64,000 bases of DNA from Styela clava. Taxonomy: Eukaryota > Chordata > Ascidiacea > Stolidobranchia > Styelidae. A program made the translations under genes and the position numbers. Below, one piece after another: positions 3,001 through 55,616 of the stretch. Below the pieces are notes generated by a model, which searched no databases, had not been told where the DNA came from, and worked only from the letters and a program-made list of their open reading frames with translations. The stretch covers positions 18,373,383-18,437,382 of the forward strand of contig NC_135252.1 in assembly GCF_964204865.1 (NCBI RefSeq), in the 5' to 3' direction. Position 1 is the stretch's first letter, and each line of letters begins with the position of its first letter.

Positions 3001-6000
3001 CTCCAGGCCGGGGTTGGTCAAAAAGTACGAGCTAATCTGTATGCATCACTTCTATATTACCTGCAAATGTGTCAGAAACCTAAATCATCTTCTGAGGAAA
3101 AAGGTGAGTCCAACTTGTCGTTTAGTTTAAAGAGGATAAGATAGAATTTACATATTTATCCCGAAAGAGAGGAAAGCCGATAAGATGGCTTTATCACATG
3201 TCGAACCACAGCCTTTCGTCCAGTTACCAGTCCATGTCAGGTATGAGATTAGTTAGCCAGTTATTTGTTTTCTGAAGCACGGACTTGATGGTGGAGGAAG
3301 CCATAACCGACCGGCAGTCACGTAAACCACCCTACGACAGTGAGGAGTCCAGTATATGACTATTCCTGCATGGAATTCGAACCCGCGAACACATGCTGGG
3401 TATTCAGAGGTGCGGTGGTGAGCGTATTCCTAACGCTAAGGATGAAGACAATCACAATCTGATTGAATACATATTGCATTACAAAGGGATTTGTTGTTAA
3501 AAATGTTTGCCAGTCGTTTTCCTCGACTGAGTTGTGTAGTCAACGGAGCACACAAGCATCAAATTCAAGCCATTTGAAGAATAGCCTTAAAAAAAAAGTT
3601 TTAATAGCAAAAACGTAGGCCAATACCATCCTTCTTTAATTGTCTGTTTAGAATTATTGGTTAACTCTATACTTTTTCATCTTTTGTCAAAAATATTGAC
3701 ACAGACAAATTCCAACTTTTGTCAAATTCTAACTTTGACACCTGACTCTGGGAGTTTGAAAATACAATTCTGACTTCAACTCCAATATTATAATTTAAAA
3801 AAAAATTCCACCTCCATAGTCCTGCTCCAGAGTCATTAATGTTTTAAAGTTCTGTATGGACCTGCAGGTAATAATATGTTTATTATGCAGCCACTCAACC
3901 ATCTTCATCAGGTCTTCGTGCATTATCAGTAGATATTTATGCAAAATTAGCTCGGGATAACGTCAAGTTGTTCAAGGCTTATGGTGATACCTTGATGGAA
4001 CTTTTATGCAAAGATGCAAGTGATGGTTGGTATTTCCGTTTAGTTGTTTTTATAGAATTTGGCTGGTTTGCGTTGAGAGATGGTTGATTTGTCCCGAATT
4101 GATGAATCAGTAAATTGATTGTTTTGTGAGGATTTGTCTAATGATTTCGGTGTTTGTTGTAGACATGGGTTTGTGATGAATATTCGAGTTGTTTTTGTTG
4201 CTTCTGGTTGGTTTGGACGAAATTGTTGAATGGTTTGTGTTGGATTAGTGCCGGTTAGTTAGTTGATCGAATTGGTTATGTGGATGGCGAGATCCTGAAG
4301 TTATTTGATGGAAATTGAGTCATTTTTAGGTCACTGTGTCAAATTCTGGTATTGTTTTTTTATTAGATTCCTAGGCATCATCATCTATAACTTATATGTA
4401 TTTGTATTATGTATTTTCACATATACATTGAACAGATTTCTACTGACTGCCATTTCAAACCCATACATTAAGCAGTCTATTGTATCTACAGCTGCGTGTA
4501 ATATTAGGTTTGATGTTTTACAGGTCATAACGTCTGCAGAATTCTTGCTTATTCGTGCCTTGATGCGATTATACAAATTGATTGGGAACTTGCATGGCTT
4601 CAGTTTATGATTAAGAAGGGATACATTAACTCAATTGCTCACAGGTTCGTTCGAAAAGTTTTTGTTACTGTTTTACTTATGTTGCCAATACGCTATGCTT
4701 AGAGCTGTATGCTACATATGAATCAGTTGATTGATTATGAAATATTTACCATGCAATTGGATAAAAGATGATTTGATAATCTGTTGATATGTCTCTGTAC
4801 AATATATGGTCATTTCAAGCTATAACCTATAGCAGGGCTACTCAACTATTTTTACCGAAGATCCGCATACAAAACTTCAAAAGTATTTGGGTCCGGTCTT
4901 TCCAGAAATAATATTTCGGCATCCTTAAATACGTACATCCTCGTATTACTAATGATTATTAGCTAATCAAGATTGTTTATCATGGCGTTATAGTTCTTTC
5001 CATATATATTTAAATCTATGGAAGTTATTTTATAAAGGAAACTTTGAAAGTGGGCCTAATGATTCAAAATAAAGAATTATGCGCGGTCCGAATCGAATAC
5101 CCGAAATGTCCGGATTCAGATCGCGGTCCGCCAGTTGGGTAGCCCTGACCTAGAGCACCAGATCAATCTGTTACTATTAATGTATATGGGCTGATTTGTC
5201 AATATTATGCTAGTGCCTCTGGAAAAGCAGATACGAATACACAGAATACCCTTCTATTTTCGGTAAAGATAAATCTTTGAAGATAGGTTGAAAGCATGGG
5301 TGTTGGACCCGAGGCCTGTAACCTGTTTTGCCAACATAAATAGGTCCAACACCTGAGTCACTCGGACATTTACAAAATTTATTTTCATGTAAATCTTTGT
5401 AAATTGTACTGGTCAGGCCTTCGATGTGTTTTATTTTTGTAAAAATATTTTTCTTTAGTTTTATTCAAGAAGATGAAGCTCTTCAGCAGGCCGTTACACC
5501 TAATCCTGAAGCAGTTCGATCATTATATATCTACGAACAAAAGATGGCATTTTTGAGTTCGCTGGCACGGACACCAGCTGGCGCTAGAGCTATTTTAGAT
5601 GCAGGAGTTCTCACTAAACTCGCAAAATGTGCATTCCTCGAAATGCGTCCAGTTGGTGACGATGGAAATGTTAACTCATTTCTGCCAAGTGTGATGTCTC
5701 GTTATCGTCAACTGCTTTTCCCAGCACTGAAACTTTGCTCATCAATTCTTGCAACACTAGGTGGCACTACACATCATGAAGCGAGCGCGCTTGTTCTAGA
5801 GTTTATGCTGATTCATGCTGACACAATAATAAATCCAGTTCTGAGAAATCAACCTATTCCTGATGATATACAGGTGGGTTTGCTTATTTTCTAAGAAAAT
5901 ATGTTTTATCGATTGAGTTTCTAGGGTTAACCACTTTTCCTTTCATGCATGCATAAATGGCATGTATAGGACAGAATAAGATTTACATATTTATCCCGGG

Positions 6001-9000
6001 GGAGAGGAAAGTGGATAAGACGGCTTAACCATATGGCAAACCACGGCCTCTCGTCCGGTTACCTGTCCATGTCAGGTATGGGATTAGTTAGCCAGTTATT
6101 TGTTTTCGGAAACATGGACTTAGAAAACATACTTGCATGTGCACACCTGTTCCCCTTTACATGGTTTGAGCCATTTTATGAATCCATATATTTTTAAAGC
6201 ATTAAACTTGCTAATTTGTTTGTCAATCAGGGTTTGATGAACCTGATGTAAAGTTTTTACTAAAATGCTTCTGTTTTATTCATTTTAGTCCTTGATGGAA
6301 CTGAAATTTGTGACTGGTATCCTGAGTCAGGTTGCAGGACAAGATTTCTCCAATGAAGCAATGTATGCTAACATTCCACAAGGAGTCCTCATTGAGCTGC
6401 AAGGACATTTATCGAAAATTCAGGTAAATTGGGTTTCTGGGATATTTTTTATTATATTCATACATAACGTGTCTCATCAAATTCCCCTAACAGGCCTTTA
6501 ATATTGATTACAACGCTGGACCATATATAGAAACGTAGAATTGATTCATAAATGGATTCGAGTTAATTACTTAGCTCATTTATTCATGTTTGTTATTTGC
6601 TTCACTATTGTAGTTTATTCAATATGTCTAATGTTTGCTAGTTATGAAATAATGTTTCCACCATTTATGTGTGTTAATATCCATTTTCCCTTTTACACAA
6701 CATTTTTGCAATCATTTTTAACAGCGTCAGTTATTGAGTCTTCTTCCACGATATTGTGTATCTGCGGAATGGATTCGTGACATTGGAAGAAATAACAGAG
6801 AAAGGGAAGATAAGGAAAATATACAAGAGGTATGTTACTTCTTTCGAAAGGATTCAGACGATATTAAACTGGCTTGATCATTGTTTGAGTTTACAAACTT
6901 GTCAAAAATGCTGCAGAACTTAAACGGAAATTCGGGGCTCGAACACCCGCGTGCCGAGCGTGCTGCCGAGTGAGATGACGCCACCCGATTTCACCTTAAT
7001 TGCGCATCTCGGCCATTCAATGAGCATCACGAATTTGGAAAATAAGTAAATGAAAAGGGATGCTATTGTTACGCAGGGAGTGACAGTAATTATTGTCATT
7101 TAGGTACACATTTTGATACCGTATCAAAATAGTTACTGTTGTTTCTTATTGCGAAAATTTTTTTTTGTACTCGAACAAATCTGTAGTCGAACACCAATCC
7201 TGAACGAGTTATGTACTACCGGGAGATCACTGTATATCCAATATTCCCAATTTTGAATGTGTTAGTTTTGGTCATCCATGCTTATACCAAAGTTCACTTT
7301 TATTGTTTCATGATTTTTGTTTCATGATTACATTAAAATATCAATTTATTTTTTGACAGATAATTCTTCTTGTTCATGAAATTTGTGCAAATTTGGCGAG
7401 TTATTGTGTTGTCATAATGCAACAAAAGTCACATGACATGGATTCACCAGTCCTGTTATTTTCTCCTCACCTAGATGAATTGTCTGATGGTGACAACATC
7501 TATAGACAGGGTGAGAGTCTTTCTTAAATTTGTGATAGGATAAATAAAATACCATTCAAAGCCTGAATAAAAAGTTGCCCATGGAATATCTATCCATTTC
7601 AATGCATCAGATGGATTCAATTAGCGGAGAGATGTAGGTGCCCAACATTGTAGAACTGACGTATTCGAGAATTTCAAATATTCATCTCCTATGCAAGTCT
7701 ATGGATATGCTATGGAATGTACCAGTATGTTTCCAATAATATCAAAAACTTTTTTTTACCTTAACATCTATGTCAGTTCCTATTTAGTGCCTGTCAAGCA
7801 TATATTTATTTGCATTTCTTTCTCATTATGGATGTTACAGAAGCAGGCTAAATCTTACATCACAGTTTTGGCCAATATGGGTGAGCACATGAATGTCCAG
7901 AATGATTCAAACATTCGGATCGATTAAAAATTTATTATACCTTCGATATTCCAAATTCCTAACTTCAGGAATAGTTTGGAATGGAGTTCTCTAAAAAATT
8001 ATTACCTTGAATAACTGAAGTCTTACAGAATGACCCAAAATGCTATTCAATTTCTGAAAAGTATGAAAAATAAAAATCCAAATCTAGAACTCCGTTGCAA
8101 TCCCATGGTAAACTCATTTCCTATTCATTTGTCTTTAAGTGCTCTTTGCGAAGTAGGGCCCCATTTTGAGGGCCCCATTTTGAACACATCGAAATTCAAA
8201 AATACTATTTTAAAGCGCATTCGGAATAAGTGGACTATTTGGTTTTAGCTATTCCTGTGAAGGTCAAGTCCACTCTTCTCAAAAACTGGATAACTAATAA
8301 CTGGATAACTAATCCAATACACGACATGGACTGGTAAATGGACGAGAGGCCGTGGTTCGTCATATGATTAAGCCATCTTATTGGCTTTCCTCTCCCTCGG
8401 GATAAATATATAAATGCTAAGGTTCAATTGATGACACAATTTTTGATAGTTAGTTTGTTTTCCAGATTACCCAGGATCCATCCAACCTCCTACACTTGGA
8501 TTATTAGTTCGAATCTTGAAAGTTTCCTCTTCAAAATTTAATTCTGCCATGGAATCAGTTGCTGTACAAAAGAGAAGATTGGATAATGTTGCTATTCTTA
8601 CTGCTCAAGAATTGAAGGAGGTAAACTAAGATTTAAAAAAAAAATTATTAACAGTAAATATACACATACAGTATTACCTCAGCATAATACATGTCTGTTA
8701 AAAATTAAAAATTATTTTAATATGGATTTTTTTTCCATTTCAATTGTTATTTTGCCTTAATTTGGTGCAGCAATTTCTTGATTTCAGGTATCATGCAGAA
8801 CACTTCTAATGCATGCTTGTTAAAAATAAAACTCTATTTTCAATTTTTTCATTACACATTATTTCGCCTTAATTTGATGGAGCAATTTTTTTCTGGATTT
8901 CAGGAATCATGCAGAATGCTTCCGCTTGACATTTTTTAGTTCGGTTTTTAGGAATCAAACTGAAAACAACCAACTGTATAAAATAGAAAAACCAATGAAA

Positions 9001-12870: not shown

Positions 12871-13453
12871 GATAGTCGATGATATGGAATAAGATAACAA
12901 ACAGTCGGTAGTTTATTTTATCTCAAACCGGAAGTATACATAATAAAGAAAGATGAAAAATTGCATTAAAACAGCAATTAATATAAACACCCGGATATGT
13001 GTCCGCAACCCATACTCCGAAACTATAGCTTGTAGTTAACGTGGAGTCAATTAAATGCGAGAGATACAAACGTGTAAACTCCTGAAGTCCTTTATGATAA
13101 AAGTTTTAAAGTGATGCAATAAGCTGGTGGTAATTTTAGACGAGTCTATCGCACCGTTTTTGGGACTTTCTCAGAACAAAAACTTTTCGGAAGACATTAT
13201 GACAATTAAGTTATTTTCACGTACCGTAGCCGGTGCAATATCTATCTAAGCGCCTGCATCGGGTGTCGCTGCTCGATACCTAACCAGCTATGGTTCCCCG
13301 CCACTTTTTTTCCGCAGTAAAGCTACATTATCATTTTCTAGTAATTTGTGCTTACGATGTCCCGTGATTAAGTTGCTTGTATGTGTGCCTTGTGTGGCAA
13401 CTGTCTCAGTTTTTTATAAGAGACAAAAATTTATTATCAATATGAGCAAAAGT

Positions 13454-13525
13454 TGACCCCGACGTGATTTGAACACGCAACCTTCTGATCTGGAGTCAGA
13501 CGCGCTACCGTTGCGCCACGGAGTC
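13454..13525 (-). tRNA. tRNA-Trp (CCA)
   Basis: Read on the minus strand this is a 72-base cloverleaf. The acceptor stem GACTCCG pairs with CGGGGTC (one G-T), the D arm holds the A box TGGCGCAACGGTAGCGCG, the anticodon loop reads CTCCAGA with anticodon CCA, and the T arm has GTTCAAATC as B box. A run of four T on the transcribed strand (plus-strand A at 13448-13451) follows at once and would end Pol III transcription. No intron. It lies divergently about 110 bases from tRNA-Asn. Confidence 0.95.
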
Positions 13526-13637
13526 AGACGATAAATTATTGCGAGAGTCCTAATATGTAACGTTTTGTTCATCGCCCGGGGCTAAACAGTATCATTGCTT
13601 GTAACATATTCAGTATTCGGCACCGAGGTGCTCGTCT

Positions 13638-13658
13638 GTCTCTGTGGCGCAATTGGTC

Positions 13659-13704
<46 letters not shown>

Positions 13705-13711
13705 AGGGACG
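13638..13711 (+). tRNA. tRNA-Asn (GTT)
   Basis: A 74-base cloverleaf: acceptor GTCTCTG with CAGGGAC, A box TGGCGCAATTGGTCAGCGCG, anticodon loop CTGTTAA with anticodon GTT, and T arm GGTGGTTCAAGCCCACC. A T5 tract at 13719-13723 is the Pol III terminator. No intron. It is divergent from the neighbouring tRNA-Trp. Confidence 0.96.
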
Positions 13712-14342
13712 TCGTTACTTTTTAGTCCTATACTAATCTAATAGTATACAATATCAATGATTGGTGCGATTTAGATAGATAGCTTGTTTTGAAAACACCA
13801 TAATTCACACAAATTTAGAATGAAGAGGGAGCGAAATATTTCAAAACATGAAAATATTTATTTGTGCGCTTGCCAGCACACATAAAAATTACAAATATCA
13901 CAGAGCTAGTTGAACGAGGCTTGGGCCAGAAATAATCAACCAAATACTCCAAACGAAAGCACGCGAATGTATTGCACTTTCGGGATGTTACAATTTGCCT
14001 AAGCTACCGTAATAATGACCAATTTAATCTTATACAGTATATTCCTCAATTTAAATGTCTTGAATAGAGGAAAATATAAAATTCAATTTTCATCTTTATG
14101 AAACCTAGTACACGGATACAGCGAAATACTGAAATATTAGTCGAAATTTGCAATAAGAAAACTGATTAACCATCGTAGTATGATATCATAAGTAGAAATT
14201 TATTTGGACTCCATTCAATTGCAACAATGTCGTACTATTTGTTACTTGTCACAATAGATGCGAAAGATAGTTTTTTTTTATATTTAAGTTGGAGTGTCAG
14301 TAAGCACTTCATGTTTTCATCTAACGTTATATATCGCCTAGT
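13712..14342. other. Intergenic stretch, nothing recognised
   Basis: AT-rich sequence between tRNA-Asn and the large hAT-like element. I see no exon, tRNA or terminal inverted repeat here. Confidence 0.5.
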
Positions 14343-16667: not shown

Positions 16668-16843
16668 AGCCAAACATAATACCATCTTTCGTGTAATATA
16701 TAACCAATGCAAATTTTCTTCCTGTGATCGTTTTTTAATTTTATGGGTAATGTTGCCGTAAGGAAATACTGGATCATGACATGGTCAATTTGATAACCAA
16801 TGTGTGCTCTGTTTAAGGGGAAACAGAAAAATGAAAAAAGAAG

Positions 16844-16915
16844 AGGTCCCACCGAGATTTGAACTCGGATCGCTGGATTCAAAGTCCAGAGTGCTAACCA
16901 TTACACCATGGGGCC
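16844..16915 (-). tRNA. tRNA-Gln (TTG)
   Basis: On the minus strand a 72-base cloverleaf starts GGCCCCATGGTGTAATGG, with A box TGGTGTAATGGTTAGCAC, anticodon loop CTTTGAA (anticodon TTG) and T arm CGAGTTCAAATCTCG. The acceptor pairs GGCCCCA with TGGGACC, including weak C-A and G-T positions that differ from the usual GGTTCCA/TGGAACC, so the acceptor may be slightly weakened. Six T follow on the transcribed strand (plus-strand A at 16834-16839) as terminator. Confidence 0.9.
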
Positions 16916-23000: not shown

Positions 23001-26000
23001 TGTATAAAAGTGGTTAGCCCCGCGGAAACGAAATCGATAGCAGAGCGTTTTACACAAAAAGCGGCATTTAACTTAGGGGTCAGAGTTCAGTGTTTAAAAT
23101 TTCATTCTATCATAAGATCTTTTTAAGTTTGACCGTCGATACATCTACCCCCTTCGTGCTGTTCACAAATCATTGAAATAACGCTGTGGGTCGAAACATA
23201 TAAAATCGTTAACACAGAAATTGGCAATAAGGAGGAAAAAAATAAATAGAACGATCACTAACTATAGGTTATAGTTGCGCTATGTATATCATTTGTAATT
23301 TTATGAAATTCTCTGTAAAAAAAACATAAATTAGACGGCAAATCTTCGACTGTTACTCCGATTCAAGTCCGATTCCATCGTTTATGCATATTATAACATA
23401 GCAATCTTTAATTCTCTTAATCGATATAAAATATACATTTACTTTTTAATTTTGCCATGCATGAGCTAATCAATTTAATGGTGTTGTTGAATTCGAGAGG
23501 TCGAGACAAGTTGTTAATTCACCCAAATGTTTAAAAGACTTCGCAAAGCCCAGCAAAATATCCATATATATATATATATACTTTTTAAATCATGACTGGA
23601 TTTTTTGCATGCTTGTCGCTCGTTTCAGATAATCCCCACAAAAAGATCAGCTCAAATGAAATCGGGTGACCTATGACGTAGGTGACAGTTTGACTCAAAT
23701 CTCACTCAAAAAATAACAGTGTGCAAACTTTCGACCGAAACTGCATAAAAACGACATTTCTTACTCGTTTCTTTTGAAGCTGTTTTATAAGTTTTAAATG
23801 TCAAGCTTCAACCAATAAGTACTGTTGAAAATAACGCGTAAAATTATTTTCTAAACTTTTCATGTATTTTGGATGTTTGAAAACCTCTCGACAGCTTTCG
23901 AGATGCGAATGGCAAATTTATTCCTAATCAAAGTTTGACAAAACAAGAGAGCTATGCTAAAATATATGGACATGTAGCGCCACCCAGTGGCAATAATTTT
24001 GATGACGCCATAGCGAAAAAAAAGTAATAGCCTCCTGGAGAAAATTTTTATCTTTAACCACTGAAAATATCAAAGCAATTGGTCCAGTATTCGAAGAGAA
24101 AAGCAATTTTTTTAAAATGGAGACGGAGACAAATAACAATAACAACAAGAGAGCTATGCTCAAATATATGGACACGTAGAGTCACATAATTTTGATGACG
24201 TCATAGCAAAAAAAAAAAGGTAATAGCCTTCTGGAGAAAATTTTTATCTTTAACCACTGAAAATTTCAAAGCAATTGGTCCAGTATTCGAAGAGAAAAGC
24301 GACTTTTTAAAAACGTGTCAAAGAACAAGAACAACAACAACAACATAATATTGAAACGATCGTTATGTCCACTACGTGTCCAATAACAACAAAATTTTGA
24401 AACGATCGTTATGGCCACTAAACGTGTCCAATAAAGTTTGACGGCTCGGCGGTGTGGCGCATCGTGCTAAGCGTTAGGAATATGCTCGCCACCGCATCTC
24501 TGATTACCCTTTGTGGGTTCGCAGTTTCGAGTCCCATGCGGGGATGATTATGTGCGAAAGGATTGCTGGACTCCTCGCCGCCGTAGGGTGGTTCACGTAA
24601 CCGCTGTTCGGTTACGGCTTCCTCTACCATCAAGTCCATGCTTCCGAAAACAAATAACTGGCTAACTAATCCCATAGCCGAATTGGACTGGTAACCGGAC
24701 GAGAGGCCATGGTTCGTCATATGATTAAGCCGTCTTACGGCTTCTCCCTCCCCCGGGATAAATATGTAAATCCTATCCTATCCTAAATTGTCAGAACTAT
24801 AAATCTATTGGGGCTCCTTTCGAATTCAACTTCTCTAACGATATTCTTTTAGTTGGGTCTGTAAACCTTTCCCTGAACAAACGAATACAAAATTAATGTT
24901 ATATATATTTATGATATTGCATCCTTGAAGTTCAAAAATATACCTGTAACCATACCTGTAAATTTTTCACAGATTTTTCAGTATGTTTTCCATAATAGTA
25001 GTAAAACGAGGACTCGAATGCTTTAAGCGGGTTTCGAAGAATTGTAATATATCTGTAAATAGATTAAATATTTGTTGGGGATGAGCGACATGAATTCACG
25101 CTGATTTTGTTGGACTGAAAAGACAGAATATGATTGCGGTAGTTTAGGTGGTATCGGGCTATTTTTATTTTTTTTATTGGGCATGCAAGTTTTCTTTGAA
25201 AAACGGACTCTTCACGTAGCGTCTGACTAATTCAAAATTATGTGAAAGAACGCACTCAGAGAAGTACATATACACGCGGCGTAAAGTGTAATTTTTGTAT
25301 TTGGGTGTTTGATATCTTCTCCACGTAAAAGTTACTAGAAAGGGGGTAACAATCTTTTTACTCTTTTAGCCGACAAAAATCATTACACCCGGGTAAGGCG
25401 GTAAACATGGAAATTTTTGAACCCAGTCAGTCAGTCAGTCAGTAGTTTATTTGTCACCAAAATGAACATACACTTGATGCAATCAAAAACTAGGAAAAAA
25501 GATGAAAATGGCATTTCACGGTGAAGGATGACGAAAAAACCCAATGTTGGTTATCGAGCAACGACAACTGTGATAAAAGTCTAACTTTGATACAGGTAGA
25601 ATAGAAATAAGTCGAACAAATATATGGAATTAAAAAGATTAATGTTTAAAAAACCAGGACCGTTACAAAAAAGAGACTCCGGGCATCAACAGGTACCGGT
25701 GAGGTAATCATGGGTAACAGCATAGCAACAACACAGCAGACTGAGTACAGTCAGCGCCATTCAAAGCTATTCAAGAACATGGTTTAGGCTCCATATTGGT
25801 CAGGCCAATTGTGTGACACATTGACAAATATTCGAATAATTGGATATAATAGTTTTATAATTATAGAAGTAGAACACCTATTTTTACTCACTTAGCATTT
25901 GGATTCATTAACGACCGAACTTCATCCTCATCGAAGCGAAAATGGCCAAGTAAGTAATCTGGCGGCACATCAATCTTGGACATATTTGAAGAAGGAACAA

Positions 26001-28748
26001 CTGTCAAATTCTGAAGAAATCTTCCTGGATATCCACCGAAAAATGGTGCTGGGAATGTCATAACTTGCGTCTGAAATAGTCATTGAATATTAGACAGAAA
26101 TTATGCACAAAAGCGGCAAAAATATATGCTTCAAGCAAAGAGCAACATTCGCACTAAACTGGCGTATAGAAATAAGGAACGTCGAACTTCGAATTGAACT
26201 AAAATAAGGTTTTTGTCGTAGACAGACTTTTTCAGTCCTAATATTAATGTATATATAATATAATTAGGTTGTTAATGCGCCCGATTCGAGAATTTCAGAT
26301 GCAAGTCATTATTCATTCTGATTCATTAGCCCTTTACATTATTCAGAGATCTTATTTCTTTGATACCTATTTCCTGAAAAGTCAGGTAAAAATTATTAAC
26401 AATAAACGATGATTGCATATGTTTTTCAATTCGGATAACGACTTTAGCCAGGAGTCTACAATGCGAAATTAAAAGCATTATCACAGGTTATATTCGGTTG
26501 AATGTTTTCTGACGAATAAAAATCCCACTTTTTAACCCTATATCTGAAATGACCTGTAGACGTTATCGATGATGTAAAAAATATATAAATCTCATTATTA
26601 TACAGTGTAGCTTCGACGAAACTAAATGACTTTTTTAACAATTTGTAGAAATATCGACAATTGTAATTATTCCCATTTAAGTTGTTTTTGTTTCGGGTAG
26701 GAAAAACAACCCGGCATTATAAGGATCCAACAGTTATAACACAGGTTTATTTATGTGCTTTTTTACTGATTACTAATTTTTTTCCCACATCTATGGCAAA
26801 GCGAAAGATAGAGTTTACGCACAAACCGAGTTAACGGAGATTGGGTTTACTTAGATGTATAATGTGGCTTGGAGGCCCTTATTCACGGCTCTTTGGAAAA
26901 CGCCGAAGTGTGGTGTCCCCAGGAGACATACAGAAGTCATTCCCTTTGGTACTTAGAGTGAGAGTGCGGCCTTGTTTTGAGCAGATTTTTTTTCCAAATA
27001 AACCTAAACTAAACAATTTTTAAGAAGAAAGAACATGAAGTGAAGCGAAATAAATGAAGGCAACATTTTGATTCAGTGTCGCGAATCCGCCTCGATCATT
27101 TTTGTTTCGGAAATGGAACGCGGTCAAAAAAGATTGCGAAACACCGACATATATATGCAATACATCTTGAGGCTGAATGAACTACGCTATAGCACAGTAC
27201 GACGGAATGCGTACTGGTAGCAGATTTAAAATTACATCATAGAATGCTAACCTGATTACTGAGTTCATATCTTCTTTTGTGTCTCGCGAGTATTGCCCTC
27301 AGTGTACTACTCCCCGTTTTGTGCGTTTTTACATAAACTAGAGATCGCGATGGTACGCAATCATTTTTTACAATCGCCTCTGTTTGTGCTTCTTCCGTTG
27401 TGCTGGTTTTAACTCGAGATTTCGACAAAAAAACGCTTTTTCCAATATTCGGCAATTTCACTCCCTACAAACGAACAATTATAAAATATTGTTATTGTAA
27501 AATCAGGTCAGCTGAAGATATGAAGAAGATCAGCAAGACATAGGTCAATGAATACATAGCTATATATCTCGGAGGAAAAAGGGCACTCCCGTAGTATGTG
27601 AACCAAGATGGCGGACACCTGAACATAGTATGCGTACCAGGTTAGGATTGGACCATAATTTTATTCCAATTTTCCCTATTTTAGTTCTATTACGAGTTTA
27701 GGAACTAGCCAAGTGACTCCCGTAGTATTCGTACCTGAACTTATGGCTTAACCCTAAACTGTTCCGCCATCTTGGTTCACATACTGCTGGAGTACCAAAA
27801 AAAGTTAATTAGTTGCATATATGCAAGTATGATGAAGAGCTACTTCAAGGTATGTAAAAAAGTTCACCAACTTTGACAAAATTTTGACCAACAAAAAATG
27901 GTTTTAGAATAAACTAAAATAAATCGAACTGAGTTTTGGTGAACGCATTTTAAAATCGCAAATTCCCCGAATATTCATTCGTGTGCTCATAGCACGGGTA
28001 TTATTGCAAGAAATCGTAAATAGAGCACGCACACAGAGAAAACCATCTGCAAACATTATGGCAAGTTACCATAAAGCGCTATGATAAATTTTCCCCAATA
28101 ATTATTCGCATGCTCACAACACGAATATTATTGCAGGAAATAGTAAATAGAACAGAAACACACAAAAAAAACATTTGCAAATAACACGTTAATATGTCAT
28201 GACGTTACAATGCTAGCTCGTGTGGAGCAAACAGCGGTTGTAAATTGTAATAGGATCAATGACCGAAACTTTCTGTAACTAATAGAAAGACTACGTTAAA
28301 TGGCTCAGGTATTTGTATCTGGACCTTCTGTATTCAAGGTTGTACACTCCTAATGTAAGTGATATGCAAGGTATACATGAACGGATTGCATTTAAATGCT
28401 TTATATATAACTTGGATTTAGGAATAGGCTTTGCAACGTAAATTACTTGCACCTACCAGATTTAACTACATTAAAAACTCATTTTGTGGGCGCACACCAA
28501 CTGGCACTACTCGGCGGGTCGCACAATTTGTCCTTGCGGGCCGCAGGTCTCACATCCCTAGCTTAGATAGTTTTAAATATTTCTTACTAAGAGTAGAAGA
28601 AACCTCTGTGGCGGGCTTCAGCTCATACAAAATCAAATAAACTTACGATTATTTTGCTTATTTGAATGTTGTGCATCACTAACATGGAAGTAAGCAATAT
28701 GCTTATAATAGCAACGTATATCAGAAACTTAGTTGCCGTCTTTTTCAT
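20013..28748 (-). CDS. Galactose-3-O-sulfotransferase-like Golgi enzyme (GAL3ST family), complete, 443 aa
   Basis: Transfers sulfate from PAPS to the 3-OH of galactose on glycolipids or glycans in the Golgi. Coding exons in order on the minus strand: 28748-28647, 27464-27252, 26070-25892, 25052-24956, 21676-21558, 21151-21004, 20565-20449, 20369-20013 (stop CTA in plus view at 20013-20015). All introns are GT-AG and phases agree. Exon 1 encodes a short cytosolic tail and one membrane segment (about residues 8-27), the type II anchor of Golgi sulfotransferases. YVKTHKTGSSTL (about residues 78-89) is the 5'-PSB loop binding PAPS. YITILRNPLKAFESSFYYY after residue 165 is the 3'-phosphate binding motif, and FDLVLITDHLLESLILMK is the later conserved block. 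N-glycosylation sequons include NLT, NMS and NES. Human GAL3ST1-4 are about 420-490 residues. The acceptor substrate cannot be told from sequence. The lysine-rich stretch NKKKRN in the last exon is unusual. Confidence 0.92.
21718..22732 (+). mobile_element. Inverted-repeat MITE copy 1, split by a hAT-like element
   Basis: The start GGCGCTCAAGAAGTGTGTGT and the end CTGCGGAAGTACC are the family termini. A perfect 8 bp duplication ACATTTTT flanks the whole (21710-21717 and 22733-22740). This copy and the one at 60817 define the family ends. It lies in intron 4 of the sulfotransferase gene, just upstream of coding exon 5 in gene orientation. Confidence 0.9.
21838..22623. mobile_element. hAT-like element nested inside an inverted-repeat MITE
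   Basis: The ends CAGTGTTTCCCAACCC and GGTTGGGAAACACTG are inverted repeats, flanked by a perfect 8 bp duplication CACTAGGC (21830-21837 and 22624-22631). Removing the element and one CACTAGGC restores the continuous body of the MITE at 21718-22732. Inside, a segment of about 170 bases with TTTATGTAGGT or TTCATGTAGGT, ATTGCGGGGC, AAACGTTTTTAC and AAGTACCAGCCAAGTT occurs twice in tandem (about 21930-22065 and 22078-22215). No transposase frame. Confidence 0.92.
23943..24432. mobile_element. Two tandem copies of a dispersed element (AGAGAGCTATGCT family)
   Basis: Both copies begin AACAAGAGAGCTATGCT, then A(C)AAATATATGGACA, AATTTTGATGACG, AAAATTTTTATCTTTAACC, AAAGCAATTGGTCCAGTA and GAAGAGAAAAGC. 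The second copy (from about 24146) runs on through a CAA-rich tract to AACGATCGTTATG, which is itself doubled near 24354 and 24401. The same family, inverted, occurs at 29872-30108, and fragments lie near 32830, 40040, 44025, 46360 and 46950. No terminal inverted repeat or coding sequence; class undetermined. Confidence 0.65.
24439..24786 (+). mobile_element. tRNA-derived SINE, nearly full length
   Basis: The head GGCGGTGTGGCGCATCGTGC holds a Pol III A box and GTTTCGAGTCCC fits a B box at the usual distance. A body of about 200 bases follows, including GGATTGCTGGACTCCTCGCC, CAAGTCCATGCTTCCGAAAA and ATGATTAAGCCGTC. It ends with GGGATAAATATGTAAATCC and a short (CCTAT)n tail. This is the most complete copy here and serves as reference for the others. 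It lies in intron 4 of the sulfotransferase gene, in the antisense direction. Confidence 0.85.
25424..25443. repeat. (CAGT)5 tract, possible 3' end of a non-LTR retrotransposon on the minus strand
   Basis: Five CAGT units are followed by AGTTTATTTGTCACC. On the minus strand this gives a sequence ending in tandem ACTG units, as many LINE 3' ends do. The 250 bases to the right have no recognised reverse transcriptase frame, so a truncated LINE is only a guess; the microsatellite itself is certain. Confidence 0.5.
27582..27796 (+). mobile_element. Inverted-repeat MITE copy 2 (symmetric subtype)
   Basis: Starts GGCACTCCCGTAGTATGTGA and ends CATACTGCTGGAGTACC. Both arms carry the CCAAGATGGCGGA or TCCGCCATCTTGG block that marks the symmetric subtype. 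Flanking GGAAAAAG and AAAAAAAG agree at 6 of 8 positions. In intron 1 of the sulfotransferase gene. Confidence 0.8.
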
Positions 28749-31648: not shown

Positions 31649-32395
31649 GGTCACCTTGTTTTTCACCAGTTGTTGGGATAAGAGAAAGGCAGTGTCGATT
31701 ATATAGTGTTCCAGAACACTAATATTGGACTGGTTTAGGAATAAATTGTAATACAAGTTGTCCATAAAGTCATATATTAAATTAGATAAATAAAATTTGA
31801 TGTACCATGTACTACTATGTATTGAAAACTGACTTTATAACAAAATCGAAATTATAACAAGACTTGATGAGCACACTTCATTATCGGAATTAGGAAATTA
31901 CACGATACATTCTAAGTCGAATACGTTCTTTTGCCAAACTAGATGTACAACTTACAAATGTTCCTACAATACGAAATAAAGAATAAATAAGGGCGATCGA
32001 TACTGTTCGAATAATGAACATATATAATATATATGAAATATAACATGTATGTATGTGTATAGATAGCCCTGGTGACAAATATCCTGGATAAGTTAATACC
32101 TTATATTGTTTTTACGTTAGCTGAATCATCATATTGACACGGCTGACTAAAAATCTAATTCTTTCCCTGGGTATTTGAAGTCACTGTCTAATGCCCTTTC
32201 TCTAGTTCTCGTGGAATGTAGAATACTCTTATGCAGCGTATTCTTTCCCAGTATGTATGATTTAAAATGATCGTATCATCATCATTGATGACCAAACCCG
32301 TAACGCGGGACACGCAACGATAGCTCTCCCATGCCGTTCAAAGCCATTAATGTTTCATTTAATGTTACTTTTTAAACGTATTCTATCGTGTATTC

Positions 32396-32651
32396 AGCAT
32401 TGCAGGGATGGTTATGTGCGAGAGGATTGCTGGACTCCTCGCCGTCGTTGGGTGGTTCACGTAACCGCTGGTCGGTTACGGCTTCCTCCACCACCAAGTC
32501 CATGCTTCCGAAAACAAACAATACAGTAAAAACTAATTCCATACCCGACTTGGAATGGTAACCGCACGAGAGGCCGTGGTTCGCCATATGAATAAGCCGT
32601 CTTATCGGCTTTCCTCGCCCCCGGGATAAATATGTAAATCCTATCCTATTA
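32396..32651 (+). mobile_element. SINE copy, head missing
   Basis: Matches the SINE from GCAGGGATGGTTATGTGCGA through GGATTGCTGGACTCCTCGCC, CAAGTCCATGCTTCCGAAAA and GAGGCCGTGGTTCGCCATAT to GGGATAAATATGTAAATCC and the CTATCCTAT tail. 5' truncated at the B-box region. Confidence 0.85.
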
Positions 32652-32827
32652 TTTTTGCAGTATTTGTGTTCATTGAGATATACCGTGATCACACGATGCC
32701 GCCATTGCGCCACATCATCAAGTATCCTATGAATCCTTATGAATCGATTTTAATTTGAATATATTGTTGTTGTTTGTATGTTGTTAATTCAATTCCTTTA
32801 GGATAAATTTCTTTTTTTATTTGCAGC

Positions 32828-48020: not shown

Positions 48021-48863
48021 CGTATTCAGGCAAAATATTTTTCTCAGAGACTATGACAAAAGAAAAAGTTCATTCATGACACTTTAAAGCTATGACACGC
48101 GTGGACTGCATGGTAATTGCGTGACCAAGTTTACCTCGTCCGCAATTTTTCAAAAAAGGGTTCCGTTCCCCCATTTATAAACGATGAACCCATGTCCTCA
48201 AAATCCAGCGAAGCCTTACAAAAATGTTAAATGGAAACTCTCCAATCAGCGTTGCAATTGTTTGTAAAATGGCAAATTTTATAAACTCAAAATATTTCAC
48301 GATAATCGAATACTACTTGTATTTTGTCTACTTATCTGACACCACGAAGATTATCAGTTTGAGGGAACTACTAGAATTAAAATCAAAACAAGCAAAAATA
48401 CTTCAATTCTAATTTATTTAGAAAATAATAAAGTTTATTTTTTAATATTAAAGTTTAGTAGGATTTCATTTATTTAGACGAAACAAGTGTTCTCTGATCA
48501 TCAAACGATCGAGTGCCATTTATTATGGTACGAATTTCAACCAGGTTTTTTTACTCGTTTATATTCCTTAAACGTTTTAATTTAGCAAAAACAGTTATGT
48601 GTGCGACCAATGGAATGGGTGTTCACGTTATCCGTTCAAATAAAATTTATCCCCATCTTTAACGTGTTTCAACCTCTATAATCTAATATGTCCTGTAACA
48701 TTCTTTGTTCTGTCATTTTGCCATGTCATAGAAAGTTGCATTATCCGAGTTCTTCAATCCATTTGATTTTTAGCTTCTTCCTAAGCGATAATTTGATTTA
48801 ATGAAACTTTAATATTAATACTGGAGTAAGGAAAAAGTACGCATTTATTTTGTTTAAAATTTT

Positions 48864-49076
48864 GATACTCATGAAGTATGCGTACCAAGATGACGAACAC
48901 CGGAACGTAGTAAGTGTACCAGGTTAGGTCCAGGCCATAATTTGATTCCAATTTTCCTTATTTTAGTTCTATTACGAGTTCGGGGACTAGTAATTGTACC
49001 TAACATTATGGGTAAAACCTGTACACATACTACGTTCCGGTGTACGCCATCTTGGTACGCATACTTCAGGAGAACC
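48864..49076 (+). mobile_element. Inverted-repeat MITE copy 12 (symmetric subtype)
   Basis: GATACTCATGAAGTATGCGT to GGTACGCATACTTCAGGAGA, arms carrying CCAAGATGACGAACACCGGA and its inverse. It lies between the two copies of the 47.6/49.4 kb duplication. Confidence 0.82.
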
Positions 49077-49384
49077 GATTTTTTTTCTAATCGATGTAAG
49101 ACATAACATGTACATAATTGTATTTCGTTTTTTTTTTTTTCAATTCATATCGTGCACCTGGTTTAATTTATTTGCCATATTTGACAGATTTGCCTAGCAG
49201 ATTTTTTTAAATTGAACTTTCATCAATGCATAATAAAACCAAACAAGTCCGGAATAATTTTGATTATTATTTGCTGTATTGTATTAGGAAGTTTGATACT
49301 TAAATTACCTCAATGAATGTCTTTACGAGAATATATTGCGCTTACAAAGCGAATGAAATATATTTTAGGGCAAAATATCCAGTA

Positions 49385-49929: not shown

Positions 49930-52405
49930 ATGAAGTTTATTTTAACTCTCGCTATTGTCTCCGCTATTGCCTTTGAAATATCTTGCGACATTCCCAATGT
50001 TTTTGAGTTTTGCTCTGCGTTAATGTCCGACAGGCAAACATCGTGTGACAGAAGCACGTGTCAAGGAATCCCTGGCAAACGAGGGCCAGAGGGGCCAAGA
50101 GGTTTAATAGGATTAAAGGGCGATACTGGTGCGGCTGGTTCGCCAAGAGAGCTAGAAGAAAAAGTAAAACGGATTGAAGGTATTTTCGTTAAAGATTGTG
50201 AACAGAACGTTGGTGTTAAAAGCAAGAGATTTATAATAAGAAATCACAATATTACACAGCTCGTTTAGATTTATTCATTTTTAGAATTATTAATTATGAG
50301 TCACCTAGTATTCAATTCACATACATTACATTACAGTCATTTTTTCTGATATTTGTTGATATATCTGTGTTTTTCATTTTTTTGCTTCCAAATTTTTGTT
50401 TACATAAGTCATGATATATTTACTTAGTTTTATTTTTCAGTTGCTCTGAAAATCCTGTCTTCAAGTATACCAAGCAATCGTAGTAAGTGGAGAAATATAA
50501 AGGTTCATTTCAAAGAAAATTTTCTTAAATCAACGTCACGAGCACTCACATAAACAAAAGCGATGTTGATCTCTGACCGAAGTTACGAGTCACTAAAGTG
50601 CCAAGAGAATGTAGAGAGTGTAGAATAGCGCGTTAAAAAACACCGATTGGAACGAGACTTGAAGAAGTCCATGTTAAAACGACCAGGACAGGAGCTAGCG
50701 GGTAGTAAGGCTGGGCAATTCTCGAATACCTGATGAATTCACAATCGAGTCGAATATTTTTTTCGAATAAAATTGTATGTAACTTTCTTATTGTATTAGG
50801 TCCTCAAGACATATAAATCACTGAAAGCATACAATACATCACTCAGGCAGATTGCTGAGCGGTCACACACAATAAAAAACACATTTTCATTAATAACTCA
50901 CTACAGAAAAGAGTCATATGTCAGAATTACATTGAAAAAATATGGCTTCAATAAAAAAAAAATTGAGAACTTCACTCGACCATTGGTGAAAAAAAAAGAT
51001 GGCGGCGATTCGAAATTTTGCTCTGAACCGATTCGAATAATTTACTGTAAGATTCAAAATGCCCAGCCCTAGAGTGTAGTGAATTCCAAATAGCCAAAGT
51101 TCATGAAAAAAAAAAAAATTGGGCGTCAAATTTTTCGTCTTGTAGCGAAATGGCTGTAAACGATTGAGAGCTTATATGCTTCTTGGTATGAAACTCGTGA
51201 AGCGCGAAATAATAGTTTTCATTTGTTAACAGTCAATGTTTGTGCGATGGGCATGAAATCACGTGCTATACCCGACTCCGCCATCAGCGTGTCGTCTGAA
51301 CATACTAGAGAATACAATGGGAGACATGGAAGGTTGGACGAAACGGCGGATCATTCATATGGCGTTTGGCATGCTGTAGCAGGTGAGTAACAAATACTAG
51401 AGTTTCAATGTACATTTTCACATAGATAAGAGTAAATTTATTGATTGCTCATCGTGTATACTCCCGACGACAAACAAGAAACAAGCCGGTTTCCAAAATA
51501 AGATTGAGTAGTGTCCGTTTAAACGATAGATATGCCCGCGATGCGCGAATGAAGTGTATTTTCATTCATTTTTCATTTGTTAAAAAAAAAATAGGAGACG
51601 AGTTAATTGCAAGACGGGAATCATAGAATATTCATTTGCAAAAGAATGAAAGATAACAATAACATTTTCCGAATGTATTTTCATCTGTTTGGTCTAGAAA
51701 TAAATAAATCATGCGTTCAAATTGTTATCTATATTTAAAAAATATTCCGCTGCAACAAAAAAATTCCGAAAACATTTTAATATTATTTTTAGGTCTAATT
51801 GACGAATGGTTCCAAGTTGATTTTGGTGTCAAAAAATCTGTAGCCGGAGTTGTTTCTCAAGGACGCCCAGCATGTTGCAGCCAATGGGTAACATCGTACA
51901 AAGTAGAAATCGCAAATTCAACAGATATGTTTGAGCCGGTTACTGAAAATGGCGCTGTCAAGGTGAGCTATTGGGGCTTGTTTGGTATGAAGCACTACGC
52001 CATAGTAATGCACTATTAGCGTGCAATGCGCCACGATATTGTTTACTCTTTGAACTTCTAAATATTTTGTTGAGTTCGAAATATTTCTAACCAAGCTTTG
52101 CTCAGGGGGGCAGGATAATTGTTTTAATTGTGGTATAAATGATAGTAAGATAAAACAAAAATATCTGTATTATTAAAGTTTTTGCTTCATTATATGAAGA
52201 CTTTGATAACTAGATTAACAAAATCAAATTGACACATTTTTTCGTTCAGATATTCAATGCGAATGAAGATGGCGACACAAAGGTTACGAACATATTTCCG
52301 ACTCAAATAACATGTCGATACATCAGAATCTATCCACAGGCATGGAATGGCAGGATTGCAATGAGATTGGAATTTATTCGTGGAGAATGTTTCGATTTGT
52401 ACTGA
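49930..52405 (+). CDS. Secreted collagen-like / discoidin (F5/8 type C) domain protein, 255 aa
   Basis: Five exons in one frame, phases matching: 49930-50179, 50441-50482 (42 bases), 51233-51382, 51793-51962, 52250-52405; stop TGA at 52403. Residues 1-19 are a signal peptide (MKFILTLAIVSAIAF). Cysteines at 28, 39 and 44 precede nine Gly-X-Y triplets (about residues 46-72, GIPGKRGPEGPRGLIGLKG...). A charged helix RELEEKVKRIEG continues into the micro-exon ALKIL, likely a coiled-coil neck. Residues from about 97 form a full discoidin domain: VCAMGMKSRAIPDSAISVSS, EWFQVDFGVKKSVAGVVSQG, QWVTSYKVEIANS, and the closing CRYIRIYPQAWNGRIAMRLE with the last Cys in RGECFDLY. Discoidin domains bind sugars, phospholipids or proteins. 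The layout resembles collectins and ficolins with the binding domain replaced. AATAAA at 52891 may be its polyadenylation signal. Function as a soluble lectin is inference. Confidence 0.88.
50706..51071. mobile_element. hAT-like MITE in an intron of the discoidin gene
   Basis: Left end TAAGGCTGGGCAATTCTCGA and right end AAAATGCCCAGCCCTA, flanked by GCGGGTAG and GAGTGTAG (6 of 8). A TCGAATA / GATTCGAAT motif lies inside each end. No coding sequence. Confidence 0.75.
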
Positions 52406-52944
52406 TGAAAATTTGGGGGTAACTCCAAAATTTAATACGACAGTGCCATTCTTACCCCAAAAATACATTAACGCTTCATGTGCTACTACAATTACGTGTA
52501 GTCAAAATTGCGAAAAAACGAGGGAACTTTCATAGCGAATAACATCATTTGTGAAATAACAATACTTCTGTCAAATTGGAGAGCAGATATCCTGGCATAC
52601 GTATAGTATTTTTTCTTACAAAAGCGATTTGGTGATTTTTTTTTTCCAAAATGGTATAATGGCATTGGCGACCCGTTTTCTTATGTCTTGGAAATCATAT
52701 ATAATAATTAATAATTAGAAGCATCTGCAATAATTAAATTTAGTCATTAATCTGGATCAGCGTTGTAGGTGTCGCTGCTTGAAGACCTTTCGACGTTCCT
52801 CGCGACTCCTGTCACACAATTGAAGTCAGTCTTTTTTTGTTTGCTTTATATTTGCCATATTTCTCGTAATGTATTTATATTGTGTTGTCAAATAAATGAT
52901 GCTTTATTGATTGATTGATTACCACCGTTTTATTATAAATATAT
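52406..52944 (+). other. Probable 3' UTR of the discoidin gene and following intergenic DNA
   Basis: AATAAA at 52891-52896 is the clearest polyadenylation signal, about 490 bases after the stop. Nothing coding is seen. Confidence 0.4.
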
Positions 52945-53170
52945 GGCGCTCTCGTAGTATGTACACCAAGATGGCATACACCGGAACGTAGTAGGTTTAC
53001 CAGGTTAGGACATCATTTTATTCTAATTTCCCTTATTTTAGTTCTATTACGAGTTCGGGGACTAGCCAAATGACTCCTGTAGTATTTGTACCTGAAATCA
53101 TGGCCTAACCCTAACCTGTTAAACAAACTACGTCCTGGTGTCTTCCGTCTTGGTTCACTACATGAGTATC
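52945..53170 (+). mobile_element. Inverted-repeat MITE copy 13 (symmetric subtype)
   Basis: GGCGCTCTCGTAGTATGTAC to CTACATGAGTATC, with CCAAGATGGCATACACCGGA in the left arm and a worn inverse in the right arm. Confidence 0.8.
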
Positions 53171-54010
53171 AAATATATTTGCAAAATCTAAGTTCTTCCA
53201 AATAACAGAACCATCAATGAAATGCTTATATAAGCGATGATTTTTACAGTAAATACTTCCGTTTCCCGTAATGCCTAGTCAGTTCCTTGGTCATTTTGAA
53301 ATATTTGTTCAAATATAAAAAACAAAGTTGCCGAATCGATGCAGCCTGACGGAATTGAAATCCAAGATATTTTCGTTTTTTGCTTGGAACATGAATAGTA
53401 CAATATTAAACACGATAGTGGGTTTATGTGAAAGCATTTATTGAATCATTCATTATTTTATTATTTCCAATCTGGTATTCATTTTAATTAAGTTACTTCG
53501 CAATTGCTGAATTTTATTTTTGTCTTTGTCGTTGTATTTTATTTCATGAATCATAATACAAAATCATCGTGTACAAATGAAGTGAGAGAGTTTTTTTTTC
53601 AAAAAACAGTCGTCGCGATAATAACAAAATAACGAGTTAGTTTGTTATTGAGTAATAGATGAATTGGATTGCGTCACAGCTCTAGTACAGTGTTCTGTGT
53701 TTTAGGACTTAGCTGTTTCAATAAACGAATTCGTTCACAATTATACATGCATACGCCTTCTAATAAATTGCATACAAATGGAAACAGGCAAAGTAATTCA
53801 GTGATTAAACAAATAGATCAGATTAGAGAATTAAGCGCCCACACTTACAGTCGTAATCGTGGGCACGGACTGTGAGATCCATGACCACGATGGTAATACA
53901 TATCTGCATAAATACCTATTTTTAATACCTTCCATGCAAATACAATTTGGATTCGTAATCAACTATTGAATTCAATTGCTATTTTATCAGCGCTTAATAT
54001 TATAGAAAAG
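53171..54010. other. Intergenic stretch, nothing recognised
   Basis: AT-rich; no exon, RNA gene or terminal repeat seen. Confidence 0.4.
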
Positions 54011-54241
54011 GGTTACTCATGTAGTATGGGAACCAAGATGGAGGACACCGGAACGTAGTATGTGCACCAGATTAGGCCAAAATTTCAGGTACAAATACTA
54101 TGGGAGTCACGTGGCTAGTCCCCGAACTCGTAATAGAACTAAAATAAGGAAAATTGGAATAAAATTATGGTCCAACCCTAACCTGGTACACATACTACGT
54201 TCCGGTGTCCGCCATCTTGGTTCACATACTATGGGAGCTAC
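54011..54241 (+). mobile_element. Inverted-repeat MITE copy 14 (symmetric subtype)
   Basis: GGTTACTCATGTAGTATGGG to CATACTATGGGAGCTAC, arms with CCAAGATGGAGGACACCGGA and TCCGGTGTCCGCCATCTTGG. Flanks AGAAAAG and AAAAAAG are a near match. Confidence 0.82.
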
Positions 54242-55616
54242 AAAAAAAGCTATGATCACAATATGCGTCAATTCAATTTTTGAATGTCTTCAAATTTTAG
54301 GCTATTTGGATTTTGTTTTGAATGATCTTTTAAAAAATAAAGTATTAATAGTATAGTTTATTTAGTATAGAAATTTTGAAAAAATTATCTGCCAAAAGTC
54401 TCGACCAATATGTATTGGTGCTCAGTTGCTGGAAACGGCAATTAAAAAGACAAAACAAATGACGTTCTAGATAACACATTTGAACACAGTAAACTTGGGA
54501 ATAAAATATACATTCATTTTTATTATTGCGTCAGAGACAGCGACAATGCTTTTCGAGATTCGTACTGGAGTCTACTCCCTTTGCACAGTGAACGCTTCAC
54601 GAAGTATCATAATCGTGACTCCTGTCATTTATAAAGTTACGGATGAGGCTGATTGACATAATCAACATAACTGAACGTGAATAAACGCTAGTGACTGAAT
54701 GCAGTGGTGTATCTACGGAAAATTACGGCCATGGCAAAATTTGAAAATGCGCCCATCTTGATATTTGGTTGACAATTCATAGTGACTGTTATAATGAAAT
54801 GAGATACTTGTACGTTATTATTTAAGTAGAATACGAGTTTAAATTATTACCAATTTGAAAATATTTTATCAAAACATTTTAGAATAAAACTTTACACCGT
54901 TTTTTACCCCTGGCACGAGCCATGGCTGCCACACCTCAGATACGCCACTGTCTGAAAGATAGATATGTTGAAAAATAATCATGACTTAGACAGAGGATAT
55001 GAATAAAAAAACGTGACACATTTGAGACTGTTAATTTAAACTTAAACATACGTGAACACACAGATTGATTACTGCCAATTGAGAGCTTAGTTTCAGCTCG
55101 CACAAATTGTTCAGAAATTACCATGAACGATGGATACGTAGGTTAGATACATAGATACATGGGTGGTTTGAAGATGTAGATTGTAGATTTTAGTAAAAAA
55201 AACACTTCATCTGTCCTAATTGGTCATTTATGAAACAATATGTATAAATGAAGAATAATTGCTTTTCCCGATTAAATTAAAATTCGTTTTTTTTAAATTT
55301 AATCAATATTGAGTTCTCACGAAATGGAAGTTTCGAATACTATCAATCGCTATGAATACAGAATTATGGACATGGTGTGGTATGGATATCACCCTCGCAT
55401 ACATGGATAGCGTCACAACTAAAGTTTGTTTTTATTTTGAATCATCCATACTATCTTCAAAAGAAGATTGACTAATTTTCAGCAATTTTCTTAGTGCAAG
55501 TTCGGTTTTCGAGAGATTCGAATCAGCCTCTTCTGTATCTTTATTTTGTGAGACTGAATACTATTTAAACTTCGTTTGCAATAATTATTGATGTATTCAG
55601 TTTTGGTTAGTTAGAC
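54242..55616. other. Intergenic stretch, nothing firmly recognised
   Basis: AT-rich. Near 54706 and 54948 the words GCAGTGGTGTATCTACGG and TCAGATACGCCACTGTCTG look like inverted ends of one more hAT-like MITE (about 54702-54950), but I could not confirm a target duplication. Confidence 0.4.
54702..54950. mobile_element. Probable hAT-like MITE
   Basis: CAGTGGTGTATCTACGG at the left and CAGATACGCCACTG at the right form an imperfect inverted repeat (both read CAGTGG(C/T)GTATCT inward). Flanking sequence ACTGAATG and TCTGAAAG agrees at 6 of 8 positions. Confidence 0.6.

Follow-up and report, generated by a model that had tools for sequence, protein, structure and literature searches.

The window analysed here is a 64-kb stretch of the Styela clava genome (C3:18373383-18437382 in the 376.6 Mb, 379-contig genome that we searched), with a GC content of 31–37%. 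On its forward strand, positions 49930-52405 hold a gene of five exons in which every border is GT-AG and the phases are 1,1,1,0, giving an open frame of 255 amino acids. This is the five-exon gene proposed in a preliminary description made from the letters alone. Its features are:

49930-50179, + strand: exon 1, with a signal-like start (aa 1-19), the Cys region (aa 20-45), nine triplets (aa 46-72) and the start of the neck (aa 73-83); a matching exon lies at 56 other places in the genome
49987-50064, + strand: N-terminal Cys region (Cys 28, 39 and 44), a candidate interchain disulphide region and the segment with the lowest pooled dN/dS (0.14)
50065-50145, + strand: collagen stretch of nine Gly-X-Y triplets as read in the window; exactly nine in 26 of 31 models
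50071-50088, + strand: Pro-Gly-Lys-Arg-Gly-Pro segment of the collagen, a candidate docking site (motif from PMC3179595 and PMC2592599)
50146-50179, + strand: coiled-coil neck, first part (aa 73-83), heptad core Leu75, Val79 and Ile82
50441-50482, + strand: exon 2, the second part of the neck (14 codons, phase 1-1), heptad core Leu86, Leu89 and Ile93
51233-51382, + strand: exon 3, start of the F5/8C domain, with Cys101; matched by the Pfam profile and by solved structures
51793-51962, + strand: exon 4, middle of the F5/8C domain; PF00754 genome match G000:C3:18425186-18425335
52250-52405, + strand: exon 5, end of the F5/8C domain, with Cys251 and the stop codon TGA; PF00754 genome match G000:C3:18425632-18425757

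The first 19 residues are hydrophobic and signal-like, as judged by hydropathy alone. Cys 28, 39 and 44 precede nine unbroken Gly-X-Y triplets (aa 46-72), followed by a charged neck (aa 73-98) and a full F5/8C, or discoidin, domain. The domain order given in the preliminary description is thus confirmed in the window gene, and it recurs in 30 other kept gene models. In Pfam the two parts fared differently: F5/8C (PF00754) matches aa 115-246 with 86.4 bits (cut-off 28.2) and E 2.3e-24, covering positions 2-127 of the 127 in the profile, but the Collagen profile reaches 20.6 bits, under its cut-off of 27.2, a shortfall that the presence of only nine triplets would explain. Among solved structures, the head comes closest to neuropilin-1 (E 3.2e-27), factor VIII and lactadherin; retinoschisin is a further relative. 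Cys101 and Cys251 bracket the domain, and both are kept in 31/31 models. Pfam finds no match to Lectin_C or PF00147 at E≤1 in the window protein, which is therefore neither a collectin nor a ficolin by its head, and the C1q domain is likewise absent.

A tblastn search of the 64-kb window with the 255-aa protein gave no second match below E 0.5. The gene is flanked by a repeat family in both orientations (48850-49084, 52931-53108 and 53998-54245) with short inverted arms; the arms at 54022-54076 and 54177-54231 are 93% complementary, like those of a small palindromic mobile element. Elsewhere in the window the open frame at 5403-5894 (+) resembles a part of nucleoporin NUP205, and that at 27240-27464 (-) resembles a galactose-3-O-sulfotransferase. 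Similar short open frames (NHGLSSGY, VEEAVTEQRLREPP) at 24421-24777 (-), 32375-32749 (-) and 5970-6194 (+) are perhaps the remnant of a transposon. ARAGORN, run with bacterial settings, reports tRNA-Trp at 13452-13526 (-), tRNA-Asn at 13637-13713 (+) and tRNA-Gln at 16843-16915 (-).

Using the stem of a paralogue as query and a threshold of E≤1.2e-5, we recovered at least 57 exon-1 copies on 11 contigs, the window's included, many of them clustered; the window protein used as query likewise recovers exon 1 repeatedly across the genome. The gene is real, and it does not stand alone. A profile search of the genome with PF00754 gave at least 133 matches at E≤0.001 (best 150 of 205 candidates scored), and 77 of the 133 fall behind an exon-1 stem. 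Since the genome search scores the best candidates only, these family counts are lower bounds. At 51/57 exon-1 loci, same-strand F5/8C exons follow within the next 8 kb downstream; the count is 47/57 if PF00754 profile matches alone are used. As controls, an F5/8C match is found within 8 kb on the opposite strand at 2/57 loci and upstream on the same strand at 16/57, the latter being expected from the tandem clusters. These counts rule out a chance reading of the layout. Of the six stems lacking a downstream F5/8C, three proved to be broken copies when modelled and another consists of a partial exon; among the 51 loci with both parts, at least two carry an internal stop. No relative turned up in a scan of viral contigs. 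In a tandem array of the discoidin family at G000:C2:17572217-17603818, two series of three copies each are interleaved at a spacing of 12,261 bases (one step 12,277); the array is a recent duplication or else an artefact of assembly.

A home-made spliced aligner was applied to 37 of the 57 loci, and we kept 31 of the resulting models, including the window gene; 28 of them are less than 97% identical. Five were dropped for internal stops (C18_15867583m, C13_9235676m, C13_14746224m, C13_14759085m and C13_14788037p) and one, C3_1944447p, which has no internal stop, for a deviant exon set. Because the aligner imposes GT-AG borders and is guided by the window protein, features of that kind do not count as independent evidence, whereas the conservation of the protein sequence and the stop codons reached do. 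Exactly five exons with phases 1,1,1,0 are present in 25/31 models, and five others have six exons, the extra piece being 9 bases in four and 15 bases in one, probably artefacts of the aligner. Model C3_18300818m has no settled start and differs in its first phase, and C2_17603600m is 293 aa long as a result of our extension to an upstream ATG. The copy closest to the window gene, on C18, is 84% identical in its exons and 60% in its introns, with 537 gapped bases (dN 0.138, dS 0.453).

Could exon 1 and the discoidin exons nonetheless belong to separate genes? The frame of exon 1 does stay open for 29 codons beyond its donor. Against such a split stand the same-strand pairing at 51/57 loci with its strand and upstream controls, the 25/31 models that share five exons and their phases, and the neck heptads, which run across the joint between exons 1 and 2. 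The recurrence of the pair and its conservation, rather than transcripts, lead us to regard a mistaken model of this kind as scarcely credible, and the joining of the collagen part to the discoidin exons assumed in the preliminary description is supported on the same grounds. The stop codon, moreover, is found at much the same position in all 31 models, which makes a fragment of a longer protein unlikely, again by conservation and not by transcripts.

The stem is closely kept within the family. Besides the 26 models with nine triplets, two have eight, and seven, ten and thirteen occur once each; Cys 28 and Cys 39 are each kept in 30/31 models and Cys 44 in 31/31. Pooled dN/dS is lowest in the Cys region (0.14), followed by the collagen (0.24), the neck (0.35), the signal part (0.43) and the head (0.49); the pool comprises 40 pairs with dS 0.02-0.6, nine of them C2 vs C2, and gene conversion may affect the values. 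At positions 75, 79, 82, 86, 89 and 93 of the neck, 162/183 cells of the 31 models (89%) hold one of Ile, Leu, Met, Val and Phe, and shifting the register by 1-3 gives 8-48%; the register had been fixed from the window sequence prior to the family count. The helical neck of the preliminary description is borne out by this repeat, and the conserved register supports a short coiled coil. That the protein forms a trimer is inferred from its collagen, with the heptad register adding support.

Within the collagen, six X/Y positions are kept (Ile/Arg47, Pro48, Lys50, Arg51, Lys63 and Ser71; 0-0.7 bits), and the other twelve range from 1.6 to 2.7 bits. Pro-Gly-Lys occurs in 29/31 models in the same register as the MASP-docking site of mannose-binding lectin (MBL) and ficolins, and the window gene reads Pro-Gly-Lys-Arg-Gly-Pro in the right register. 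In PMC3179595 and PMC2592599, the source of the motif, the residue Xaa after the lysine is usually aliphatic or Met, binding of MASP to rat MBL and ficolin-B is abolished when the motif lysine and its neighbour are changed together, and Glu at Xaa disrupts docking by ficolin-B. Xaa is Arg in the window gene and in most copies, so that docking of a protease stays a hypothesis. The same residue would suit a protein that acts only as an opsonin or agglutinin, a sub-case of soluble recognition in which no complement protease docks and the lysine is conserved for triple-helix stability, which could account for the Pro-Gly-Lys. The full Pro-Gly-Lys-x-Gly-Pro, present in 16/31 models, is missing from 15/31, and a docking site is not the sole route to complement, since an amphioxus ficolin without collagen engages MASP according to PMC11312191. 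However, Lys50 (0.4 bits) is far more constrained than most X/Y positions and lies in the register of the MBL and ficolin lysine, although the five other kept positions show that it is not alone in this. We hold the opsonin-only version to be possible and no firmer than tentative.

Variation within the head is uneven. Loops at the presumed binding face have a pooled dN/dS of 0.67, compared with 0.38 for the rest of the head, and parsimony on the tree gives 0.63 vs 0.34 elsewhere. With the signal part excluded, 12 of the 13 sites with the top excess of replacement over silent change lie in loops (238, 176, 175, 123, 149, 237, 124, 240, 121, 241, 144 and 147; the exception is 138). By parsimony on the tree the mean dN/dS of every loop stays below 1 (loop means 0.58-0.69), and relaxed constraint is therefore a possible cause. 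Silent change is also raised in the loops (pS 0.281 vs 0.169), so that part of the contrast may come from gene conversion in the scaffold or from alignment error. As the first loop set was drawn post hoc, with the alignment already viewed, the contrast was retested with positions aligned to neuropilin-1 and a shift control. Entropy within two residues of the mapped neuropilin-1 b1 pocket is 1.93 bits (27 sites) against 1.21 bits elsewhere (124 sites; Mann-Whitney p 1.5e-4), and the contrast is equalled by 2/150 circular shifts. The letters of the residues taken to line the pocket agree with the neuropilin-1 alignment.

An extracellular matrix or adhesive family, in which trimeric connectors carry discoidin heads onto matrix or surfaces and have no immune role, has to be weighed here. 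Binding to matrix or to the surface of cells is common among F5/8C domains, and neuropilin, lactadherin and retinoschisin are among the solved relatives; the layout by itself does not decide between matrix and recognition. The concentration of change near the predicted binding face argues the other way, as do the many copies, tandem clusters and broken copies, which fit a recognition repertoire better, and nine triplets would be short for a fibrous role. Together with the fibrinogen- and C-type-lectin-headed counterparts described below, these points make a matrix family unlikely in our judgement. Changing binding faces and lineage expansion would fit as well with recognition of gametes or of self and non-self, in fertilisation or allorecognition; there is no positive evidence for this and nothing in the analysis indicates gonad or egg, and we regard it as quite improbable.

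Weaker stem matches (E about 0.001-0.003) led to four loci in the same genome with other heads: L053 (C19), L056 (C10), L054 (C18) and L055 (C1). L053 and L056 have a Cys region, short collagen and exons of a fibrinogen domain, with PF00147 matching the last exon at E 6e-30 and 2e-25, respectively; the solved relatives of the L053 fibrinogen exon include tenascins and ficolins 1-3. L054 has a stem with GRPGKRG followed by C-type lectin exons, whose Lectin_C match (E 0.0012) scores 20.0 bits, under the cut-off of 22.6, and whose head matches the CTLD of lymphocyte antigen 75 at E 8e-6. The sequence of L055 reads almost like that of L054. By eye, L054, L056 and probably L053 show a phase-1 end to exon 1, and L054 and L056 have a 1-1 neck exon, as in the window gene. 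The likeness to the order of collectins and ficolins noted in the preliminary description holds, and these loci serve as comparators from the same genome.

In a profile test of the Cys region against the discoidin family, 0/300 shuffles scored as well as L056, 29/300 as well as L053 and 275/300 as well as L054. Descent of this region in common with the discoidin family is thus supported for L056, weakly so for L053 and not for L054, and one common origin for all of the stems matched on C19, C10, C18 and C1 was given up after the L054 result. The plan is shared across three kinds of head; we do not claim a single origin of all stems. The C18 region that includes L054 (G000:C18:16032030-16080960) holds eight equal-scoring C-type-lectin head exons, repeated in tandem at intervals of 6.92-6.97 kb and adjoined by stem matches, with a further copy of the head exon at C1:25784068. 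Around L053 (G000:C19:5340867-6066104), weak stem matches at E about 0.002-0.006 lie on both strands over ~0.7 Mb; the one fetched, L053, is a ficolin-like gene.

Collectins such as mannose-binding lectin and collectin-11 share with the window protein a signal peptide, N-terminal cysteines, collagen, a coiled-coil neck and a single C-terminal head, as well as Pro-Gly-Lys in the MASP-docking register, and the exon phases match those of the collectin-like L054; the window protein differs in having F5/8C in place of the C-type lectin domain and nine triplets only. Ficolins, including those of tunicates, follow the same plan, and ficolin-like genes are present in this genome, L056 with a Cys region resembling that of the discoidin family, but the head of the window protein is F5/8C and not fibrinogen-like. 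C1q-like proteins also combine short collagen with a C-terminal head, and the rotifer ones have a collagen of about 30 aa with nine glycines (PMC8878817). The window protein, in contrast, has no C1q domain and carries a neck between collagen and head. Neuropilin-1, factor VIII and lactadherin share the head domain, whose first and last Cys are those kept in all 31 models, but are not known to carry it on a stem of collagen and neck. Discoidin I-type lectins have an F5/8C-type binding head too; the slime-mould discoidin trimerises through another domain and is not known to contain collagen. Our literature search, confined to non-subscription sources and with the domain name unsearchable as printed because of its slash, found no description of a collagen-stemmed, discoidin-headed protein. 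A screen (PMC11312191) places collagen-bearing ficolins in vertebrates and urochordates, its introduction adding amphioxus, and PMC5465252 credits ascidians with MBL, ficolin, MASP and C3. Earlier annotation is possible, Styela plicata collagenous lectins being cited as references in PMC5465252.

We propose that the product of the window gene is secreted and serves as a soluble recognition molecule, combining the collectin and ficolin plan with a discoidin head, a reading to which we give a probability of roughly 0.6, with about half of this confidence placed on the version with protease docking. The layout, its recurrence, the constraint on stem and neck, the variation near the neuropilin-1-pocket positions and the parallel heads are read directly from the DNA; lectin activity and a role in immunity or in the matrix are what we infer from them. 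Three chains would zip at the neck into a coiled coil that starts a short collagen triple helix, and the N-terminal cysteines may link the trimers into clusters. The ligands of F5/8C domains may be sugar, phospholipid or protein, and the heads would attach multivalently to sugars or phospholipids on the surface of microbes or of altered self, with a specificity that may differ among the paralogues. If the near-invariant Pro-Gly-Lys of the collagen docks a MASP-like protease, binding could then trigger complement C3.

The lectin pathway is classically initiated by collagen-stemmed recognition molecules, the collectins and ficolins. We suggest, as a speculative extension that we rate below an even chance, that the discoidin-headed proteins are a third class of lectin-pathway recognition molecule, with dozens of genes and diversified faces in one invertebrate lineage, existing beside collectin-like and ficolin-like genes, and with the repertoire arising from different heads placed behind a collagen-neck stem by way of phase-1 introns. 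If the proposal is true, the collagen-neck stem would be a general adaptor for different heads, and one animal would hold dozens of versions, with their greatest differences close to the binding face.
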